The notes beneath the pieces were generated by a model. It did not search any database, was not told the DNA's origin, and saw nothing but the letters and a program-made list of their open reading frames with translations. This document shows positions 9,837 to 19,277 of a stretch of 40,412 nt of DNA, one piece after another. The number at the start of each line of letters is the position of its first letter. The first letter of the stretch is position 1. Position numbers and translations under genes: made by a program. Location of the stretch: contig JANJUM010000017.1 in the NCBI GenBank assembly GCA_024710585.1, positions 1-40,412 on the forward strand, read 5' to 3'. Source of the stretch: Desulforhopalus sp. (GTDB lineage: Bacteria > Desulfobacterota > Desulfobulbia > Desulfobulbales > Desulfocapsaceae).

Positions 9837-9980
9837 TTCAGGCTCCGGCGGCGGGTTGCACCCAGCTCGCCGAGATCTGACCGACATGACCCGCGGATGC
9901 CAAACGCCCGGCGCAATGGCACCGTCGCCAGGCTCCGCCATACAGCCCCGCCCGCCCCTCCACCGACAACCAAGGACACC

Positions 9981-10373
9981 ATGATACGTGATCTCGCCCT
10001 TGCCGCCAAGGCATCCTGCAGCCTCGAGGACCAGGAATCCCTCGTCCCCATCATCCAGCAACTGAAAAAGCTCGCCGAACTCACCACCAAGCAGGGCGTG
10101 CTGGCCCTTGAGAACGAACTGCCGCAAATCAAAGATGCTTTCTTCAATCTCGGCGTTCAGCTGATTATCGACAGGGTGGAAGCCGACAACATCAAGGACA
10201 TTCTCGACTCGGACATCTATTACAACCAGTCCAACGGGAGGGAACTGCTCAAGAAGATCATCATTCGCGAAGGCCTGCTGCGCATACAGGCCGGAGATAC
10301 CCCTAGAAACGTGCTCATCTGCACCAAGGTCTTTCTCGGGAGGGTGCCGGAAACCGCATTCCGCTCCTTCTGA
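9981..10373 (+). CDS. small soluble protein resembling the MotA cytoplasmic loop
   Basis: This 130-residue protein has no membrane segment and no signal peptide. Residues 25-80 read like the large cytoplasmic loop of the flagellar stator MotA/PomA: a helix LAELTTKQGVLALEN (31-45), then IKDAFFNLGVQLIIDR (50-65), then ADNIKDIL (68-75). The corresponding MotA pattern is A-x-x-EG-LALE, d-F-x-x-G-x-x-L-x-x-D-G, then e-x-x-x-iL. The four stator membrane helices are absent, so it cannot be a stator itself. ATG 9981 is chosen because similarity starts soon after it; the upstream open frame is Pro/Arg-rich. It stands alone, convergent with the ATPase gene. It may be a decoy or partner in motor-like assemblies, which is inference. 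Confidence 0.65.
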   Translation: MIRDLALAAKASCSLEDQESLVPIIQQLKKLAELTTKQGVLALENELPQIKDAFFNLGVQLIIDRVEADNIKDILDSDIYYNQSNGRELLKKIIIREGLLRIQAGDTPRNVLICTKVFLGRVPETAFRSF

Positions 10374-10406: not shown

Positions 10407-12449
10407 TCAGCGGCCGTTTTCGAGAACGACGATCTCGACGCGGCGGTTTTTCGTCCTGCCCTCGGCAGTGGCATTTGAGGCGATCGGCTCCTCTATCCCC
10501 ATGCCCTTGACTTCAATACGCCGTGCTTCGATGCCGCTGGCGACGAGGAGCTTTCGCACCCCCTCGGCACGCTTTTCCGACAGCCTGGTGTTTTCGGCCG
10601 AGGCGGTCGATGAGGAAACATAGCCCTTGACCAGCACCCGTCTTTGCGGAGCAGCCTTGAGCTTGTCGACGAAGTCGCGCAGCTCGGCTTTGCCCTCGAC
10701 GGTGAGTTCCCGCGAGTTAGCGGCAAGGGCAAGGACCACCTTGGCCGGCAGGGCAACGGCGGCCACGCCCTGACCCCTGCTATCGGCCGTGGTCGATGGC
10801 AGAGGAGGGGCTGCCGTCACGGTTTTTACCGCTGCATCCTGCCCGCCAGCTGTTGACAGCACTGGCGAGGTCGAAGCCACTGGCGGCAGCGGCGTTTCGT
10901 CACCTCTGGAGGAACCCTCCGCCAGCACAGCAGCAGGCCGCGCATGGCTGGGGGGCTTGTCAGCCGAGGGCAAGCTGACCTCAGGACTGGGAAGCTGACC
11001 GCCGCCAGCCGGCAATAAGGGCGCGGCCGATACGGCCGTCGTCGCAGATTCCCCGCCACCTACCGGCAGCAGGGGCGCAGCCGAGACAATCGTCACCGCC
11101 GACTGCCCGTCGACAGCCGGCAACAGGGGCGCGGCCGATACGGCCGTCGTCGCAGACTCCCCGCCACCTACCGGCAGCAGGGGCGCAGCCGAGACAATCG
11201 TCACCGCCGACTGCCCGGCAGGGCTCTCTGCAGCCACAACCGAGATGCTGTCATCATCGTCACCCGGCTTGGCGGGGATGAAGCCCTTCCGCTCCCCCCC
11301 CCTGCCGTCACCCGTCCCGGCAGGGGGCTGCTCCACCTGCCCTGCCAGCGGCGGGCTCTCCTCCGAGCCATCCTTCTTCACCTCGGCACGCTCCGCCACC
11401 TCGACAGGCTCGACCACTGCCCCGCCATCCGGGCCTGGTCCATACTGCCAGAAGGCCAGGGCAAACCCGGCGGCCACCAGGCCAACAGCCCCGACCTGCC
11501 ACAGCGGGAATCGGCGCTGCTTCTCGAGGTTGAAGCCGGTGACCACCCCGGGGGAAGCACCAGCCCCGGGGGTGAAACGGCCGCGGAAATGCTGCAGATG
11601 GCTCTTCTCCTGTTCGAGGCCGACAAAATCCTGCGGGGTCGGTTTCAGGGGTAGATTGAGTTTCTGAGCGCATTCCTCGACAATCTGTTCGTCGATGTTA
11701 CGCCTGCCTTGGACACAGGCCGCCACCAAGGCATGGTCGCAGATGATGTTGAGACGCCTGGGCACGCCCATGGCGTATTGGTGAATGCGCCGCACCGCAG
11801 CGGCGGAAAAGATCTTTTCCGTACTGCCGGCCACTTTCAGGCGATGATCGATGTAGGCCCCGCTTTCCTCGACGGTGAAGGGTACGAGATCGACCTTGAC
11901 GGTGAGTCGCTGGCGCAGGGCGCGGTTTTGCGGCTGCACGAGGGTATCGTTGAATTCCCGCTGCCCGACGAAAAAGATATTGATCAACTTGGCGTCAGCC
12001 TTCTCGATATTGGAGAGCAGGCGCAGTTCTTCGAGCATCTCCTGACTAAGGCGCTGGCAGTCGTCGATGAGCAGCAGGACTTTTTTCCCTTCGTCACCGG
12101 ACTTGTGCAGGAAATGGCTGAATTGCAGGAGAAATTCTACTTTTGAGGTGAATTCCCTGGCAAGGCCGAAGCCGGTGGCGATGGCATTGTAGAACTCGAG
12201 ACGCTCCCGCGCCGGGTCGGTGATCACCGCCGCCACCACCGAGTCGTGGAGGCTGGCGAGGAGGGCGTTGACCAGGGTCGTCTTACCTATGCCGGCCTCC
12301 CCGGTGAAGAGCAAAAAGCCCTTGTTCTCGAGAATGCCGTACCGCAGGGCGGCGAGCGCCTCGCGGTGCTTTTCTCCCAGCCAGAGGAACGTGGCGTCGG
12401 GCGCCACCTCGAATGGTTTGCACTGCAGGTTGAAAAATGCCCTATACAT
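10407..12449 (-). CDS. ExeA/GspA-type AAA ATPase fused to an OmpA-like domain
   Basis: This 680-residue inner-membrane protein starts MYRAFFNLQCKPF, typical of the ExeA/GspA and exosortase-linked ATPase family. Walker A is GEAGIGKT at 50-57 and Walker B LLLIDD at 125-130. A single membrane helix lies at about 316-334, then a Pro/Ala-rich linker (335-565) with an 18/36-residue repeat, then an OmpA/MotB-type peptidoglycan-binding domain (about 570-676) with RLSEKRAEGV and KNRRVEI. In that domain the usual GHTD is GYVS, so the diaminopimelate-binding Asp is replaced by Ser612, while Arg627 is kept. ExeA proteins use a periplasmic wall-binding domain to help secretins assemble through peptidoglycan. 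ATG 12449 gives the family N-terminus; the ribosome site is weak. Confidence 0.85.
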   Translation of the reverse strand: MYRAFFNLQCKPFEVAPDATFLWLGEKHREALAALRYGILENKGFLLFTGEAGIGKTTLVNALLASLHDSVVAAVITDPARERLEFYNAIATGFGLAREFTSKVEFLLQFSHFLHKSGDEGKKVLLLIDDCQRLSQEMLEELRLLSNIEKADAKLINIFFVGQREFNDTLVQPQNRALRQRLTVKVDLVPFTVEESGAYIDHRLKVAGSTEKIFSAAAVRRIHQYAMGVPRRLNIICDHALVAACVQGRRNIDEQIVEECAQKLNLPLKPTPQDFVGLEQEKSHLQHFRGRFTPGAGASPGVVTGFNLEKQRRFPLWQVGAVGLVAAGFALAFWQYGPGPDGGAVVEPVEVAERAEVKKDGSEESPPLAGQVEQPPAGTGDGRGGERKGFIPAKPGDDDDSISVVAAESPAGQSAVTIVSAAPLLPVGGGESATTAVSAAPLLPAVDGQSAVTIVSAAPLLPVGGGESATTAVSAAPLLPAGGGQLPSPEVSLPSADKPPSHARPAAVLAEGSSRGDETPLPPVASTSPVLSTAGGQDAAVKTVTAAPPLPSTTADSRGQGVAAVALPAKVVLALAANSRELTVEGKAELRDFVDKLKAAPQRRVLVKGYVSSSTASAENTRLSEKRAEGVRKLLVASGIEARRIEVKGMGIEEPIASNATAEGRTKNRRVEIVVLENGR
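11005..11217 (-). repeat. 108-bp tandem repeat in the ATPase-OmpA linker
   Basis: Two nearly identical 108-base units lie in tandem, beginning around 11021 and 11129. They encode the 36-residue unit at residues 414-449 and 450-485. Each unit is itself two diverged 18-residue halves containing VSAAPLLP. The copies differ at very few bases, which suggests recent duplication or gene conversion. A further diverged VTAAPPLP half lies nearer the OmpA domain. Confidence 0.9.
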
Positions 12450-12733
12450 AGTCATCCGTTGTGAAAGCAGCAAAGACGGTCAGGCAGGCGAGAACTGCCC
12501 CAATAGCCCATACAGGAATCTTTACCTAACACTAACATGCCAACATTGCAATTTTTTTCAACACACTGTAAGGTATCGACGATATACGATTTTCCACATC
12601 AGCGAGAACATATGCCGCAATGACGTGCACTTCACGGCACGCGGCCCCCTCGCCAGCGGATTCCATCACCACCAACTGTCCGCCATCGCTCTCCATGGAG
12701 CGACAGCGGCCGACTCCCACCATCGAGACAGCC

Positions 12734-14227
12734 ATGAACATACTGCCCCGCCTTGCGCTGTTGTCTCTCCTTCTCGCCCCTCCGGCCTCCCTGGCAGCCG
12801 AGCAAGGCCCGGCGTTCAAGGAACCTCTCGACAGGGCCAACGAGTTGATCAGATCCTATCGACACTTCGAGGCCGCCGACGCCCTCAAAGAAGCCACGAC
12901 CATAGCCGGAGACAAGCACCCGTCCCTGCACATGCGCCTTGGCATTCTCTATTACGGCCTCGGCCTCATCCCCGAGGCCATCGCAGAAGCGCAGAAGGCG
13001 GTAGCCCTCGCCCCCACCTCGAAGTGGTACAAATACGATCTGGCCAAATTCTATTACGTCGACAAACAGTATGCCAGAGCGGAGCAGCAGATCCTCGATC
13101 TGCTTGCCCAGGATCCGGGCTTCACCCTCGGGTATTCCTATCTGGCCGAACTTTACACCCGTAATAAAAATTACGACATGGCCTGGCTCAGCCTGCAGAG
13201 GGCTCGGCTCCTCGGCCACCAGGGCCGACGCCTCGAGGAAAAACTTGCCGCCCGCAGCTCCAAACCGACGGAGAACTTCCTCCTCCTGCCCCCCGAACGG
13301 TCGCTCTTGCGCTATATCAAGCTGCCCTCCGAGCAGGAGGCAAAAAATGTTCTCGCCGAGATCGCCGGCGGCAAGCTCTTCGAAAACCTCGAGCTGGAAC
13401 TCAAAAAAGACAAGAGCGGCGACGTCGATTTCGGCCTGTTGGGCATCGCCGAGGTCAAGGACGCCGCGACAGCCGCAACCCTGCGCAACCAGGTGCCCTT
13501 CGCCACCCCGACGGTGATCGCCGGTGAGGGGGGGGTGCTCATCGTCCAGAAAATCGCCCCTTTCGACATCAAGGCCTGGAAGGCTCTCGTCGCCGCCCCG
13601 CCGTCTCCGCGGGGAGCGACGGGGGCCGACCCCATGTTGCCTGCAAAGGAACTGACCGCCCCCCCGCCACAGACACCGCCCCCAGCCAGGAAGGAAGTCA
13701 TCCCCCAGGCCTCAGCGCCAACGGTTACGGACCCTTTGCCGAAGCAGACAGTGATGACGGCCCAGGCCGCCGAGCCCGGCCAGCAACCTGCCGAGCCTGC
13801 GCCAGAGTCAACGCAACCCGCGACAACATCCCAGAGCATGGAACCGTCGACCAGGGCACTGCAGCACCTTTCCCTGCAGCTCGAAGCATTCTACGCCCTG
13901 GAGGCGTGGAAGAATGCCTGGCAGGCGGCCGACATCGCCGCCTATCTCGACGCCTACAGCGAGCGGTTCTCGCCAGCCACCGCGGTCAGCCTCGAAACAT
14001 GGAAAAATCAGCGCATCGCCAGCCTGACACGGCCGAAATTCATCCACCTGAAGATCGACAACCCGGTGGTCGACCTGCAGACCGACGACCGGCTGCAGAT
14101 CACCTTCACCCAGCATTTTCAATCGGACAGCTACCGCGACTCGGTGTACAAGGCCCTGGTCATGGTGAGGGAGATGGAACGCTGGAAGATCAGCGAAGAG
14201 CGCATCCTCAAGGTACTCGAAGAATGA
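12734..14227 (+). CDS. secreted TPR protein with parvulin-like and NTF2-like domains
   Basis: This 497-residue exported protein has a signal peptide at about 1-21 (hydrophobic core LLSLLLAPP, cleavage near SLA-AE). TPR-like helical repeats span about 35-170 (GDKHPSLHMRLG, YYGLGLIPEAI, YYVDKQYARAE). Residues 190-277 follow the parvulin peptidyl-prolyl isomerase pattern (EQEAKNVLAEIAGGKLFENL, FGLLGIAEV, FATPTVIAGEGGVLIVQK) but are divergent. A Pro-rich linker (about 287-395) leads to an NTF2-like domain (about 400-497; WKNAWQAADIAAYLDAYS, ERWKISEE). That module is usually seen after YafK/Cds6-type L,D-transpeptidase domains. The gene is divergent from the ATPase-OmpA gene and convergent with the VanY-like gene. 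ATG 12734 is set by the signal peptide. Confidence 0.8.
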   Translation: MNILPRLALLSLLLAPPASLAAEQGPAFKEPLDRANELIRSYRHFEAADALKEATTIAGDKHPSLHMRLGILYYGLGLIPEAIAEAQKAVALAPTSKWYKYDLAKFYYVDKQYARAEQQILDLLAQDPGFTLGYSYLAELYTRNKNYDMAWLSLQRARLLGHQGRRLEEKLAARSSKPTENFLLLPPERSLLRYIKLPSEQEAKNVLAEIAGGKLFENLELELKKDKSGDVDFGLLGIAEVKDAATAATLRNQVPFATPTVIAGEGGVLIVQKIAPFDIKAWKALVAAPPSPRGATGADPMLPAKELTAPPPQTPPPARKEVIPQASAPTVTDPLPKQTVMTAQAAEPGQQPAEPAPESTQPATTSQSMEPSTRALQHLSLQLEAFYALEAWKNAWQAADIAAYLDAYSERFSPATAVSLETWKNQRIASLTRPKFIHLKIDNPVVDLQTDDRLQITFTQHFQSDSYRDSVYKALVMVREMERWKISEERILKVLEE

Positions 14228-14236
14228 GCCGGCCGC

Positions 14237-15121
14237 CTAGAGCTTGATGTGCCAGGGCTCGTAGCGAACCCCGAGCATGTTGTCGCGCCAGTAGCGGTTG
14301 TCGATATAGCCGCGCTCGATGAGCTCGCGGTACACCGAGGTCGAGGTGAAGCGTTCGGTGAAATTGTGCACCCCGAACCCTTTCTGACCGATATCGAAGT
14401 CCCCCACGGCATGATAGGAATAGCCGGGAGGGGCAAGGGAGCGCGAAGCCAGCGAGAGGTTGCCACCATGGCGTCTCGCCTTGTTGAGGAAGAGATAGAG
14501 CTGCTTGACGATGCCACGGATGCCCGAGGTGAGGATCACATCCTCTCCCAGTACCGCCCGGATCCTGCCATATTTTTCCAGCGAATCGCCTTTGAAGAGA
14601 TAGTTGCCGGAAAAGGGAACCTTGACGATGTCGGCTGGGTCGATGCGATGGGTCAGCGAATTCACCGGTTTGGTCCCGAAGAACCCATAATCCCTGGCGT
14701 CACGGCTATGGAGCATCTCGACGAAAGCCAGCTCTTCGGAGGTGAAGACGCCTATGGATTCCTGGCGTCTGGCGATTCCCAGGGCCTCATCGAAACCGAG
14801 CACCGAAAAATTGCCATCACCGACACAGGCGCGGAGGCGGTTCAGTCGCTCCAGCACCGTCTGCAGCAACTGCATTTCGCGCTGGTTGAGATAGAGATCG
14901 TCGACGAAAGCGGTATCGGGGTTGCGGACCTTATAGAGATAGTCTTTGATCGAGCCGTCCCCGGGTCCTCCTGAAAAGGCGTCGCCCTGGGCGGTGTCGG
15001 TACCCGGAAGCCCTTCTTCGCCCTCCTCTTCGACCGAGAGCGCCTCGCCCGCCGCCAGTGGTGAGATGCCGGCCCAGACCAGGCCGGCCACCGTCATTTT
15101 CAGGAAGCTTCTTCTATTCAT
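14237..15121 (-). CDS. Tat-exported VanY-like D-alanyl-D-alanine carboxypeptidase (M15 family)
   Basis: This 294-residue protein begins MNRRSFLKMTVAG, a twin-arginine export signal followed by a hydrophobic stretch, so it should reach the periplasm folded. An acidic Gly-rich spacer (about 28-60) follows. The C-terminal half carries the M15B zinc-peptidase signature: LTSGIRG, then SLAPPGYSYHAVGDFDIG with His and Asp spaced as metal ligands, then YEPWHIKL with the final His. Such enzymes trim D-Ala or cleave peptide cross-links of peptidoglycan. Its stop lies nine bases from that of the TPR protein. It has a good promoter 64 bases upstream. The wall substrate is inferred from family membership and cell location. 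Confidence 0.88.
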   Translation of the reverse strand: MNRRSFLKMTVAGLVWAGISPLAAGEALSVEEEGEEGLPGTDTAQGDAFSGGPGDGSIKDYLYKVRNPDTAFVDDLYLNQREMQLLQTVLERLNRLRACVGDGNFSVLGFDEALGIARRQESIGVFTSEELAFVEMLHSRDARDYGFFGTKPVNSLTHRIDPADIVKVPFSGNYLFKGDSLEKYGRIRAVLGEDVILTSGIRGIVKQLYLFLNKARRHGGNLSLASRSLAPPGYSYHAVGDFDIGQKGFGVHNFTERFTSTSVYRELIERGYIDNRYWRDNMLGVRYEPWHIKL

Positions 15122-15440: not shown

Positions 15441-15531
15441 GACCTGGCGAGGAATCCTCTTGAGTTTCCCCGCCAGGTCTGTTAAGCATACGTTCTTGCG
15501 ATGCACCGGCCCGGTATCCCCCAATGGGGGA
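15441..15531 (+). repeat. two inverted repeats in the long gap before the glycosyltransferase operon
   Basis: The 570-base gap 15122-15692 holds no gene I can support. It contains a perfect 9-bp inverted repeat, GACCTGGCG (15441-15449) and CGCCAGGTC (15471-15479), and a short hairpin TCCCCC-AAT-GGGGGA (15517-15531). Neither is followed by a U-tract. They may be leader structures or operator sites for the genes starting at 15693. Confidence 0.4.
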
Positions 15532-15692
15532 CACTCTTCGCGCTGCCCCGCAGGAACACGTTAATTTCTGCCCTTCCCCGCTCCCTCCTGGCGACCCTCG
15601 TTGGCGACAGCACGCGACCGCATGCCGGGCACCGCAGCCTCGAAGAGGGACGTTACCGCATATTTTCCGCCAACCCCCACCCTCTGCAAGCG

Positions 15693-16412
15693 ATGGCAGA
15701 CGACTTGACCATCATAGTCCCGGTCTACAACGAAGAGGAAAGCCTCGTCGCCTTCTTCCGGGAACTGGACCCTCTGCTCAGCCAGACGCCGCTGCCCACC
15801 AAGGTGCTGTTCGTCAACGATGGCTCGACCGACCGCAGCCTGGCGATCCTAAAAGAGCAGTGCACGGCCCGCCTGCCGCAGTGCGCCATACTCCAGCTCG
15901 ACCGCAATTACGGTTTGAGCACCGCCATCAAAGCCGGCATCGACCACTGCCAGAGCACGCTGATCGGCTATATCGACGCCGACCTGCAGACCCGGCCCAT
16001 CGATTTTCTCGGCTACCTGCCCCATTTCCCCGAGTACGACATGGTCAACGGCATCAGGAGAAAGCGGCGCGACCGGCTGGTGAAAAGGCTTTCCTCGAAA
16101 GTCGCCAATGCCTACCGCCGGCTGATGATCGATGACCGGATCGAGGATACCTGCTGCCCGCTGAAGATTCTCAAGACTTCCTTCGCGCGACAGATGCCGT
16201 TCTTCACCGGCATGCACCGCTTCATGCCAGCCCTGGTGCAGCTGCAGGGCGGCAGGGTTAAACAGGTAGAGATCCCCCACTACCCGCGCCACGCCGGGAC
16301 AAGCAAATACAACCTGCGCAACCGCCTGATCGGCCCCTTCTTCGACACCCTCGCCTTCCGCTGGATGCGCAGCCGCTCGATCCGTTACGGCGTCGTCCAG
16401 CCGCCAGCATGA
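15693..16412 (+). CDS. family 2 glycosyltransferase (polyprenyl-phosphate sugar synthase type)
   Basis: This 239-residue GT-A enzyme starts LTIIVPVYNEEESL, has VNDGSTDRS at 42-49, the DXD metal motif as DADLQ at 95-99, and a RRKRRDRLVKRL basic region after the catalytic core. It lacks the two C-terminal membrane helices of ArnC/GtrB-type enzymes, so it resembles the soluble dolichyl-phosphate-mannose synthase branch. Such enzymes move a sugar from a nucleotide donor to a polyprenyl phosphate. ATG 15693 is chosen at the start of the GT fold; the open frame upstream is not protein-like. The stop overlaps the next gene (ATGA), making it the first gene of a three-gene coupled cassette. Confidence 0.88.
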   Translation: MADDLTIIVPVYNEEESLVAFFRELDPLLSQTPLPTKVLFVNDGSTDRSLAILKEQCTARLPQCAILQLDRNYGLSTAIKAGIDHCQSTLIGYIDADLQTRPIDFLGYLPHFPEYDMVNGIRRKRRDRLVKRLSSKVANAYRRLMIDDRIEDTCCPLKILKTSFARQMPFFTGMHRFMPALVQLQGGRVKQVEIPHYPRHAGTSKYNLRNRLIGPFFDTLAFRWMRSRSIRYGVVQPPA

Positions 16413-17047
16413 ACCATTACCTCGTCTTCGCCATAGGCTTTACCGCCCAGCTGCTGTTTTCCGCGCGACTCCTGGTGCAGTGGTTCGCCTCGGAACGGGC
16501 CGGGCGCATCCTCTCGCCACTGGTCTTCTGGCAACTCAGCGTCCTTGCGTCCTTTCTTCTCGTTCTCTACGGCGTCCTCCGCCACGACCCGGCGATCATC
16601 CTCGGCCAGGCAGTGACCTACGGCATCTATATCCGCAACCTCCATTATTACGGCTTCTGGGGGAAGATCCCGGCTGCGGTGCGTATTCTCGTCGTTGCCA
16701 TGCCGGTCCTCGCCATCGCCCAGCTGCTCGCTGGCGAGACCTACAGCCTCGCCAGAATCCTCGGCAACAAGGAAATCTCCACTACGCTGATGATCTGGGG
16801 CATTGCCGGGCAGGTAGTCTTCACCTTTCGTTTCGTACTGCAATGGCTCTACTCGGAGAAGCGGCAACAGTCGGTCCTGCCCATCCAGTTCTGGCTGGTC
16901 AGCATCGTCGGCTCGCTGATGGTCCTCACCTACGCCATCGTCCGCCGCGATCCGGTGCTGCTCCTCGGCCAGGCCTTCGGCTTCGTCGTCTACTTCCGCA
17001 ACACCCTCCTCTGGTGGCGGCAGCGCCACGCCCTCGGGCAGCAATGA
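16409..17047 (+). CDS. LAB_N (lipid A biosynthesis N-terminal) domain membrane protein
   Basis: This 212-residue membrane protein is built from two copies of the LAB_N module. Each copy has an FSARLLVQW or FTFRFVLQW segment, then S-x-L-P-x-x-FW, then an LR-x-DP-x-x-x-LGQ turn, then a YxRN end (residues near 20-78 and 140-200). The duplicated small-helix layout recalls small-multidrug-resistance-like flippases such as ArnE/ArnF, although LAB_N proteins have no settled function. It overlaps the glycosyltransferase before it and the GT-C enzyme after it by four bases each (ATGA both times). That tight coupling suggests the three proteins act together, possibly with this one moving the lipid-linked sugar across the membrane. 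Confidence 0.85.
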   Translation: MNHYLVFAIGFTAQLLFSARLLVQWFASERAGRILSPLVFWQLSVLASFLLVLYGVLRHDPAIILGQAVTYGIYIRNLHYYGFWGKIPAAVRILVVAMPVLAIAQLLAGETYSLARILGNKEISTTLMIWGIAGQVVFTFRFVLQWLYSEKRQQSVLPIQFWLVSIVGSLMVLTYAIVRRDPVLLLGQAFGFVVYFRNTLLWWRQRHALGQQ

Positions 17048-18585
17048 AACGGCTCATCGCACAGCGACAGACCCTGGCCTTCCTGCTCTTTCTCGCCGGC
17101 TACTTCCTGCTGCACATCGCCCTGCGGGTGGCCATTTCGCCATCGCTCGATTACGACGAGGCCGAGCAGATGCTGCTCAGCCAGTGGCTGCTTCCCGGCT
17201 ATACCGAGCAGCCGCCCCTCTACACCTGGGTACAGCGACTTCTCTTCGCCCTTTTCGGCAAAGGCGTTTTCGCCATCTCGCTGCTGAAAAACACCCTGCT
17301 CTTCCTCACCTACCTCTTCGTCTTCCTTACCGCGCGCAGAGCGCTGAACAACGAACGTCTGGCCATCCTCGCCAGCCTGTCACTGCTCTTCATCCCGCAG
17401 ATCGGCTGGGAGTCGCAGCGCGACATGACCCACACCACCTTGGCGGTGCTGGCGGCGGCGGCGACCCTGTGGCAGGTCCTGCGCCTGCTCGAGCGGCAGA
17501 ACCTCGGCAACTATCTCATCCTCGGGGTGATCCTCGCCGTTGGCATTCTCTCCAAGGCCAACTATCTCCTCTTCGCCGCGGTGCTCTTCATCACTCTCGC
17601 CACCTTTGCCGAAGGGCGCCAGCTGCTCTTTCACCGCCACATGGCGCTGGCCCTCTGCCTCGCCCTGCTCCTGCCCTCCGGGTACCTGTGGTGGATGACC
17701 GAAAACCGCGACATCGTCTTCTCCGCCACCCACAAATTCAAACGGGAGGCGCTCGACTTCTGGTACAAGGGCCCGGCCAGCCTGGTTTTCAAGACCTTCC
17801 TCTTTCTGACCCCCCTTTGGCTGATCCTGCTGCTGCTCTTTCCACGAGGCCTGCGCGGGACACTTCCGCCTGGAGAAGCTCTGCCGCCCCGCCTGCTGCA
17901 GCGGCTGCTCCTTTTCCTCTTCATCGCCCTGCTGGTGGTGGTGCTGGCCGGCAAGGTCACCTACGTCAAGGACCGCTGGCTCCAGCCACTGCTCTTTATC
18001 GTACCCCTGGTCTTCTTCACCCGACTGCACCGGGACCAGCCGACCGCACCCCGCTTCACACTCTTCATAGGCCTGGCCGGAGTGGCCGCACTCGGCATCT
18101 ACCTCGCTTTTGCCCTGCGCGTCGTCGCCGCCTCCTACAGCGGCAGCTTCTGCCGCCTCAACTACCCCTTCGCCACCATCGGCGCCGACCTCCGCGCCCT
18201 TGGCTTCCGAGAGGGTGTTCTCATAAGCGACGACCGCTTTCTTGCCGGCAACCTCCACTTGCTCTTCCCGGCAAGCCCAGCCCTGGTCCCCGGCTATCGC
18301 TTCGAGCGGCAACTCCCTGTGGCGAACTCCGGGCTGCCCACGCCAGGTCGCCGCCAGCTCGCCGTGGTCTGGCACGCGGCGCAGTCGCTGACCCTCCCCG
18401 ACGAGCTGCGCAGCTACCTCGCCGCGGCCTTCGCAGTGACGGACATAACCGCGGAACCCCGTGTGCTCCGCCATCGCTACCTCTTTGCCCGAGACGAGAC
18501 CCTCGACCTGGCAGTGCTTCTCATCCCCCTGCCCAGCCCTCCGACAGAACAAAAACCACAACGCCCCCTCGCCGGCAAGGGCTGA
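17044..18585 (+). CDS. GT-C glycosyltransferase, ArnT/PMT-like
   Basis: This 513-residue membrane protein has about ten or more hydrophobic segments. The first periplasmic loop holds the acidic motif DYDEAEQML, followed by EQPPLYTWVQ, as in ArnT/PMT (GT83/GT39) enzymes that use polyprenyl-phosphate sugars. A large soluble region lies at the C-terminus (about 370-513). These enzymes transfer a sugar from a lipid carrier to lipid A, protein or a polysaccharide on the periplasmic face. It overlaps the LAB_N gene by four bases and ends the cassette. The acceptor cannot be told from sequence; lipid A is suggested by the LAB_N partner but unproven. Confidence 0.87.
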   Translation: MKRLIAQRQTLAFLLFLAGYFLLHIALRVAISPSLDYDEAEQMLLSQWLLPGYTEQPPLYTWVQRLLFALFGKGVFAISLLKNTLLFLTYLFVFLTARRALNNERLAILASLSLLFIPQIGWESQRDMTHTTLAVLAAAATLWQVLRLLERQNLGNYLILGVILAVGILSKANYLLFAAVLFITLATFAEGRQLLFHRHMALALCLALLLPSGYLWWMTENRDIVFSATHKFKREALDFWYKGPASLVFKTFLFLTPLWLILLLLFPRGLRGTLPPGEALPPRLLQRLLLFLFIALLVVVLAGKVTYVKDRWLQPLLFIVPLVFFTRLHRDQPTAPRFTLFIGLAGVAALGIYLAFALRVVAASYSGSFCRLNYPFATIGADLRALGFREGVLISDDRFLAGNLHLLFPASPALVPGYRFERQLPVANSGLPTPGRRQLAVVWHAAQSLTLPDELRSYLAAAFAVTDITAEPRVLRHRYLFARDETLDLAVLLIPLPSPPTEQKPQRPLAGKG

Positions 18586-18599
18586 GGCAGATAAAGGCA

Positions 18600-18627
18600 T
18601 TGACGGCAAGGTTGCCGAACGTATACT
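18600..18627 (+). promoter_or_regulatory. candidate promoter for the DUF2062 gene
   Basis: TTGACG (18600-18605) and TATACT (18622-18627) are separated by 16 bases, a strong sigma70 match lying directly after the GT-C stop. It suggests that the DUF2062 gene can be expressed independently of the glycosyltransferase cassette, with a leader of about 77 bases. Confidence 0.6.
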
Positions 18628-18710
18628 TACCACATTGACCACAGTCGTGGAGCTGCCCGCAGGGCAACCGTCGACTACAACGGATACGTGCCACGGCGAC
18701 ACACGGACGG

Positions 18711-19277
18711 ATGATGGAAGAGAGGAGCGAAGAACGGAACAAGCGAAACCGGCTGCTGCGCCTGCGACCGGTATTGCGCTGGGTTCTCAGGCTGCGCAGT
18801 TCGCCGCGGGCCATCGCCGGCGGCCTGGGGGTGGGGATGTTCATCGCCTTTACTCCAACCGTGGGCATCCAGATCATCCTGGCGATTATCGCCGCCACCA
18901 TCTGCAACGTCAATCGGCCGGCGGCCATCGCCCCGGTATGGATCACCAACCCGGTGACCATCGCGCCGATCTACACCTTCAACTACTGGCTCGGCGCCTT
19001 CGTCTGGCCGGGGCCACCGCTGGGCGAGGTCAAGACGATGTTCGTCAACCTCGGCCTGGCCCTGACCCACCTCAGCTTTTGGGACATGAAGGAAGCGGTG
19101 CTGGCCATGATGCAGATCGGCATGGAGATCCTCATCCCTCTGTGCATCGGCAGCTGCGCCGTAGGGATCGTCCTCGGCCTGATCACCTATGTCCTCTCCC
19201 TGCGGCTGCTCTCCTTCTTCTTTAAGCGGCGCGCCGAGAAACGACTCCTCAACAACCCCAGCCCCCGCCAACACTAA
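18711..19277 (+). CDS. DUF2062 family membrane protein
   Basis: This 188-residue protein has a basic N-terminal region (residues 1-38), then the DUF2062 pattern: SSPRAIAGGLGVGMFIAFTP (33-52), GIQIILA, NRPAAIAPVWITNPVT (about 68-84), and two further hydrophobic stretches before a basic tail. The family is found widely in proteobacteria, often next to glycosyltransferase or lipid genes, and its function is not established. Tandem ATG codons at 18711 and 18714 make the exact start uncertain by one residue. The gene converges with the RlhA-type gene, with 25 bases between stops. Confidence 0.85.
   Translation: MMEERSEERNKRNRLLRLRPVLRWVLRLRSSPRAIAGGLGVGMFIAFTPTVGIQIILAIIAATICNVNRPAAIAPVWITNPVTIAPIYTFNYWLGAFVWPGPPLGEVKTMFVNLGLALTHLSFWDMKEAVLAMMQIGMEILIPLCIGSCAVGIVLGLITYVLSLRLLSFFFKRRAEKRLLNNPSPRQH

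Follow-up and report, generated by a model that had tools for sequence, protein, structure and literature searches.

P0001 is a 680-residue protein encoded on the minus strand at positions 10407–12449 of the window, the whole 40,412-nucleotide stretch of a Desulforhopalus sp. contig (JANJUM010000017.1) analyzed here. It joins an ExeA-type ATPase, a membrane helix, and an OmpA-like domain, and both domains have lost a characteristic residue: Ser612 occupies the position of the Asp that contacts diaminopimelate (DAP) in OmpA-type domains, and Asp130 occupies the usual Glu position of the Walker B motif. The Ser is invariant in a clade of related fusions, nearly all of which lack the Walker B Glu. 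Because a residue is lost in both domains and the neighboring genes are predicted to act in wall remodeling, a modified wall scaffold is probable, rather than an ordinary secretion-assembly ATPase. The full proposal is tentative, and we give it slightly less than an even chance: judging from sequence comparisons, P0001 would be a clade-specific inner-membrane wall scaffold that arose from ExeA-type ATPases and has an altered stem-peptide pocket and poor hydrolysis.

Domain organization of P0001

The open reading frame and its Pfam matches define P0001 as a fusion of an AAA_22 ATPase domain (residues 42–170, 11940–12326; E 1.6e-25, over the cut-off) and an OmpA-like domain (residues 577–669, 10443–10721; E 1.2e-18, 67.7 bits against a gathering score of 27.2), with all features of the protein on the minus strand. 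Between the two, a simple hydropathy script placed a predicted membrane helix (residues 316–334, 11448–11504) and, after this hydrophobic segment, a Pro/Ala-rich linker of 234 residues (10746–11447; 14% Pro, 17% Ala). The initial annotation had described this same fusion, with one helix and a Pro/Ala linker, and Pfam and hydropathy agree with it. The linker DNA holds a 108-base tandem repeat of 2.1 copies (10995–11217).

ExeA carries a PG_binding_1 wall module. Pfam detected no module of this type in P0001 and found OmpA instead, as had been anticipated. The predicted model of the OmpA-like domain has a normal OmpA fold (pLDDT, predicted local distance difference test, 91.5), and among the 50 matches listed against known structures, which include OmpA, Pal, TagL, PorE, and MotB chains, Z ranges from 13.6 to 17.1. 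In PHROGs, a transposition-protein family is the best match for the ATPase part, and families of unknown function match the OmpA part. A scan of 12300–12800 gave no promoter-like site (0.3 in shuffled sequences) and one terminator-like site (0.5 in shuffled sequences).

A clade altered at both sites

We compared 46 distinct ExeA-like proteins (loci L009–L077, with exact and contained duplicates removed), a set drawn from part of the matches and comprising 17 proteins whose OmpA domain has the Ser (Ser-type), 12 whose OmpA domain has the Asp (Asp-type), and 17 without an OmpA motif. When only the ATPase part was used to build a tree, a branch with support of 100/98 separated the 17 Ser-type rows, together with L045, from all the others. 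L045, counted among the 17 without an OmpA motif, is truncated by a contig edge ahead of its OmpA domain, and the Ser-type row L077 lacks its start for the same reason and begins at residue 29.

The position of the DAP-contacting Asp (position 0) is Ser in 17/17 clade members whose OmpA domain can be read and is encoded by all four TCN codons (TCT 8, TCC 5, TCG 3, and TCA 1). Since the Ser is invariant while its codons vary, the residue has been retained despite DNA change, and a sequencing error, raised earlier as a possible source of the Ser, is ruled out. The pattern also fits the initial suggestion of altered binding or a new ligand. The Val-Ser pair is invariant among clade members, as are Asn, Leu-Ser, Arg-Ala, and NRRVE in alignment A1 (12 clade members). 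Decay or an assembly error would explain why both sites have lost a catalytic or ligand residue, but we regard it as extremely improbable in view of the Ser and its codons, the open frames, the conserved domain, and the predicted fold.

AAA ATPases usually rely on the Walker B Glu as catalytic base. P0001 retains Walker A (GEAGIGKT, residues 50–57, 12279–12302) and reads LLLIDDCQ at Walker B, with Asp130 (12060–12062) at the Glu position. The initial annotation had called both motifs intact, which holds for Walker A and fails for Walker B: the acid is Asp in 12, Asn in 3, Ser in 2, and Glu in 1 of the 18 clade rows, whereas Glu is present in 28/28 of the other rows. Loss of the Walker B Glu with retention of Walker A suggests that the ATPase of the clade binds nucleotide with weak or no turnover. 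L121 and L122, which stand outside the tree and the counts, both have the Walker B Glu; L122 has the OmpA Asp, and L121 is without an OmpA motif. L057, L076, and L121 represent a third kind of ExeA-like protein, without the OmpA motif and with a shared short tail, IDW(V/L)(L/I)K.

The layout of ATPase, membrane helix, and OmpA domain had been considered unusual, but it recurs in the Asp-type fusions, in which position 0 is Asp in 12/12 rows and which fall outside the Ser clade; L122 is one more. Homologs with an Asp, named at the outset as a potential challenge to the reading, therefore exist with the same architecture, but none is known as characterized, all lie outside the Ser clade, and seven loci with flanking DNA are without the neighbors of the clade.

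The altered OmpA pocket

P0001 reads GYVS at residues 609–612 where GHTD was expected, and Ser612 (10614–10616) and the retained Arg were correctly identified in the initial annotation. In the PorE contact map, the Asp contacts the DAP amine, and the further contacts are Asn at +8, Ile/Leu at +11, Tyr at +7 (stem peptide), and Arg at +15 (PMC7192894). On this map, the amine-contacting Asp is missing from P0001, as first proposed, while Asn620 (+8, 10590–10592), a DAP-amine contact, and Arg627 (+15, 10569–10571), a DAP-carboxylate contact, are retained. TagL carries the corresponding Asp, Asn, Leu, and Arg (PMC8253398), and titrations of D271A and R286A variants of Acinetobacter baumannii OmpA, as reported in PMC6572160, indicated that both residues are critical for DAP binding. 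Measured against the motif TD(x)7NxxLSxxRA (PMC5104382), P0001 has VS for TD and retains the remainder. The window genome has six Pfam OmpA matches, and the five besides P0001 all have the Asp; Ser is thus not a genome-wide change.

The clade as a whole retains positions +8, +11, and +15 and alters positions 0 and +7. At +7, where P0001 has Glu619 (10593–10595), the 17 clade members have Glu (14), Gln (1), or Ala (2), and the 12 Asp-type fusions have Tyr (11) or Leu (1), Tyr being the predominant residue in Asp-type domains. We extended the comparison to 70 OmpA domains, a non-random set made up of the fusions, matches to the Ser-type and TolC-OmpA queries, and three window-genome domains that fit one spacing pattern (L095 and L100, also from the window genome, have a longer spacing and stand outside the set). 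The 19 Asp-less domains have Glu (15), Ala (2), Gln (1), or Gly (1) at +7, and none of the 51 Asp-type domains has Glu or Gln there. All 19 form a single clade with support of 100/98, so the association between positions 0 and +7 reflects one history and not repeated coupling. The TolC-OmpA protein of genome G009 had seemed to be a second, independent case of coupling; the idea was rejected because its domain groups with the others in that clade (100/98).

These data bear on the possibility that P0001 is an ordinary wall anchor, in which Glu at +7 would take over the DAP-amine contact of the lost Asp and the domain would bind a normal DAP stem. The retained Asn, Leu, and Arg, the Glu at +7 in 14/17 members, the combination of Ala at 0 and Glu at +7 in the TolC-OmpA protein (G009:C101), and the absence of Glu or Gln at +7 in 51 Asp-type rows are all in its favor. 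Three members nevertheless have Ala or Gln at +7, and the descent of the Asp-less domains from one clade offers no repeated coupling; on balance, we consider an ordinary anchor unlikely.

Alternatively, the OmpA domain may have left peptidoglycan and become a protein–protein module, for example for the TPR/NTF2 protein encoded next to P0001 (P0002, see below). The genomic co-occurrence with P0002 is in keeping with this idea, as is Treponema Tp0624, in which the Asp is Ala and the Arg is retained and which did not bind DAP in titration or soaking experiments (PMC5104382). The Asn, Leu-Ser, Arg-Ala, and NRRVE residues are, however, invariant in the 12 members of A1, as expected of a pocket in use, and Tp0624 homologs have also lost the Asn, the pocket of Tp0624 containing bulky residues (PMC5104382). 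A pure interaction module thus appears doubtful.

Distribution of Ser-type domains

Of 193 genomes sampled from the order, 13 have a Ser-type domain. In G021, one of these 13, its sole carrier is a protein that lacks the ATPase (L125, minus strand); this protein begins with a signal-peptide-like stretch and is cut at a contig edge. The three remaining genomes of the order with matches near E 1e-26 have Asp at position 0. A search of 395 genomes of the phylum with a Ser-type profile (E up to 1e-24) returned the window genome as the sole Ser-type match, with Asp at all 20 other loci, in a sample that cannot have contained the genus-mates known to carry the Ser-type domain and at a threshold that would miss more diverged ones.

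The TolC-OmpA gene of G009 (L114:6772–8766, minus strand) encodes a TolC-type OEP with an Asp-less OmpA domain (GYTA...IEN). With the adjoining ABC transporter and HlyD genes, it forms part of a type I secretion-like set. When its OmpA domain was searched against the 193 genomes of the order, 27 had a match, and beyond the self match none was better than the best Ser-type fusions.

Conserved neighborhood of the Ser-type genes

Divergently transcribed from the P0001 gene is that of P0002 (12734–14227, plus strand), which contains TPRs, a parvulin-like middle region, and an NTF2 domain of the Csd6/Pgp2/Bd1075 type. It is followed by a VanY-like (M15) peptidase with the metal and catalytic motif residues present (14237–15121, minus strand) and by three conserved plus-strand neighbors, a GT2 glycosyltransferase (15501–16412), a LAB_N protein (16409–17047), and a PMT_2 glycosyltransferase (17044–18585). 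On the other side of P0001, a gene for a MotA-like protein of 131 residues (9978–10373, plus strand) has no Pfam match; the protein resembles the cytosolic part of MotA (best PDB match at E 4.3e-6).

With tblastn, relatives of these neighbors were found at many of the 17 Ser-type loci: TPR/NTF2 at 11, the VanY-like peptidase at 11, LAB_N at 12, PMT_2 at 12, MotA-like at 12, DUF2062 at 7, and cydA at 8. GT2 was found at 13, of which 12 are safer because the L077 match (29% identity) is probably another GT2. Two of the 17 loci are under 6 kb, and one ends within the gene. None of the eight tested neighbors was found by tblastn at the 7 of 12 Asp-type loci that have flanks. The TPR/NTF2 or peptidase gene persists beside the Ser-type gene in two other genera (L061, L065, L071, L072, L123, and L124). 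Strong P0002 matches (E ≤ 2.8e-57) occur in 10 of the 193 genomes of the order, every one belonging to the 13 Ser-type genomes, and in 0/180 others.

In profile searches, the NTF2 domain of P0002 matched Bd1075 (4.9e-13), 4xzz (Csd6, 1.8e-7), and Pgp2 (9.5e-5), and the best Foldseek match of the P0002 model is Bd1075. The NTF2 pocket of Pgp2 binds peptidoglycan and is required for helical shape (PMC8038945). No carboxypeptidase domain was matched in P0002 by Pfam or NCBIfam. Its middle region is weakly indicated to be parvulin-like only: PrsA was matched at E 0.055 and Rotamase_2 at E 0.054 in one of eight members, and the strand and helix order of the model resembles that of parvulins. The peptidase neighbors have the H..G..D and E.WH residues of the M15 peptidase motif in 11/11 cases, in L061 within a short frame.

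The GT2, LAB_N, PMT_2, and DUF2062 genes form a block (15501–19277, plus strand) that is conserved beside the P0001 gene. By analogy, the block perhaps serves a polyprenyl-sugar-dependent modification of an envelope glycan. The MotA-like protein was a tempting partner, since OmpA resembles MotB; it occurs in 37 of the 193 genomes of the order, many of them without a Ser-type match, and was set aside.

The conserved neighbors are predicted wall- or envelope-modifying genes, which suggests wall remodeling rather than secretin assembly. Secretin assembly, named in the initial annotation as a task of ExeA/GspA proteins, finds no support as a role at this locus. The corresponding explanation, that P0001 is a working ExeA/GspA in which the wall module alone was exchanged, can draw on the similarity of its ATPase part to ExeA-type ATPases and on three secretin genes in the window genome. 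The secretin genes are, however, all on contigs other than this 40-kb one (though in an assembly of 276 contigs), the Walker B Glu is lost, and the conserved neighbors are wall and glycan genes. PF16537 (T2SSB/GspB) had no match in the genome, and the control likewise matched nowhere. We regard a working secretin-assembly protein as distinctly improbable.

A proposed wall scaffold

We infer the following mechanism for the preferred reading, a modified wall scaffold. The cytosolic domain, with Walker A intact, would still bind nucleotide, and hydrolysis would be slow or nil owing to loss of the Walker B Glu; ATP may then be an assembly switch more than a fuel. The single membrane helix and the long flexible linker would hold the OmpA domain at peptidoglycan. 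There, its pocket may grip a DAP-type stem through the Arg and Asn, with the Asp pairing to the free DAP amine gone and a Glu usually gained beside the stem peptide. Such a pocket might have a changed peptidoglycan specificity, for example for a stem in which crosslinking leaves no free DAP amine. The scaffold could help to place P0002, with its TPRs and Csd6-type peptidoglycan-binding NTF2 domain, and the VanY-like peptidase. A bolder version is doubtful but worth stating: P0001 could act as a pseudo-ATPase scaffold gated by nucleotide, with an OmpA domain able to read a wall state closed to ordinary OmpA domains, such as a crosslinked stem lacking a free DAP amine, and could direct the Csd6-type NTF2 protein and the VanY-like peptidase to sites of wall remodeling, as an inner-membrane counterpart of the systems for helical or curved shape in Helicobacter, Campylobacter, and Bdellovibrio.

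Several observations weigh against a scaffold of this kind. The clade member L062 retains the Walker B Glu, and Asp at this position elsewhere in the clade may leave residual activity. Positions 0 and +7 were altered in one lineage and thus give no repeated evidence of compensation; at +7, two members have Ala and another has Gln. The pocket of Tp0624 also contains bulky Leu-His residues as a possible cause of its failure to bind DAP (PMC5104382), so loss of the Asp alone need not abolish binding. At the locus level, 6/17 loci are without P0002 and 6/17 without the peptidase (some of these loci being short), and cydA adjoins 8/17, so part of the neighborhood is ordinary synteny. Of the 13 Ser-type genomes, 3 gave no P0002 match, and four weak P0002 matches (1e-22 to 1e-25, covering residues 7–301 but not the NTF2 domain) come from genomes that had no Ser-type match. 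The co-occurrence of P0002 and the Ser-type domain has a Fisher p of 1.8e-14, assuming that the two 193-genome samples (same size, same listed handles) are identical, and this value overstates the association because the genomes are related. In addition, G006 has its P0002 relative broken up among several reading frames, and the peptidase motif of L061 lies in a 78-residue frame beside a longer one; each may reflect a broken gene or a sequencing error.

Parts of this picture are already known. Loss of the Asp with the Arg kept has a published precedent in Tp0624 (PMC5104382), and the fusion architecture is also present in the Asp-type clade described here. Among the titles and abstract openings listed by searches of the open-licence PMC literature, none describes an ExeA-OmpA fusion, and the two residue changes in one conserved clade with this neighborhood are not described there or in the available portions of the papers cited.

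In the usual description of OmpA-type domains, they read peptidoglycan by means of a strictly conserved DAP contact. Throughout the present clade this contact has been replaced, apparently under selection, and the ATPase site has changed as well, while the other OmpA domains of the one genome checked retain the Asp. If specificity has shifted, the Ser-type domain would be a natural soluble domain with which to ask how wall-binding proteins distinguish peptidoglycan states, with the Asp-type fusions as a ready control, and P0001 would be a candidate link between a nucleotide switch at the inner membrane and wall remodeling of the cell-shape type.

Comparison with known systems

P0001 shares with ExeA/GspA of the Aeromonas type II secretion system a cytosolic AAA ATPase, one membrane helix, and a periplasmic wall-binding domain (PMC4098917); it differs in having OmpA as the wall module and in the loss of the Walker B Glu. 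Its best NCBIfam match is TIGR03015, the XrtA/PEP-CTERM-associated ATPase, to which it is similar over residues 1–264 with a score of 252.5 bits, below the curated cut-off of 324.5. The exosortase family PF09721 had no match in the 95.8% complete genome, with the control positive in only 1 of 14 cases, and an XrtA/PEP-CTERM role was rejected on these two results. The Asp-type ExeA-OmpA fusions (L043 from Desulfospira joergensenii, L067–L070, L073, and others) have the same architecture and a related ATPase; unlike P0001, they have Asp at position 0 and the Walker B Glu in 12/12 rows.

P0002 resembles Csd6, Pgp2, and Bd1075 in its NTF2 domain and differs from them by its TPRs and parvulin-like region. 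The OmpA domain of P0001 has the same predicted fold as OmpA, Pal, and MotB proteins (3TD5, TagL, and PorE; Z up to 17.1) and retains their Asn, Leu, Ser, Arg, and Ala residues. It departs from them in having Ser for Asp, Val for the preceding Thr, and, in the clade, mostly Glu at +7. The closest parallel in the pocket is domain 3 of Tp0624, which is OmpA-like and has likewise lost the DAP-contacting Asp while retaining the Arg (PMC5104382). In Tp0624, however, Ala stands in for the Asp, Glu/Gln occupies the Asn position, and ornithine is a component of the peptidoglycan (PMC5104382), whereas P0001 retains Asn620 and has its domain joined to an ATPase.

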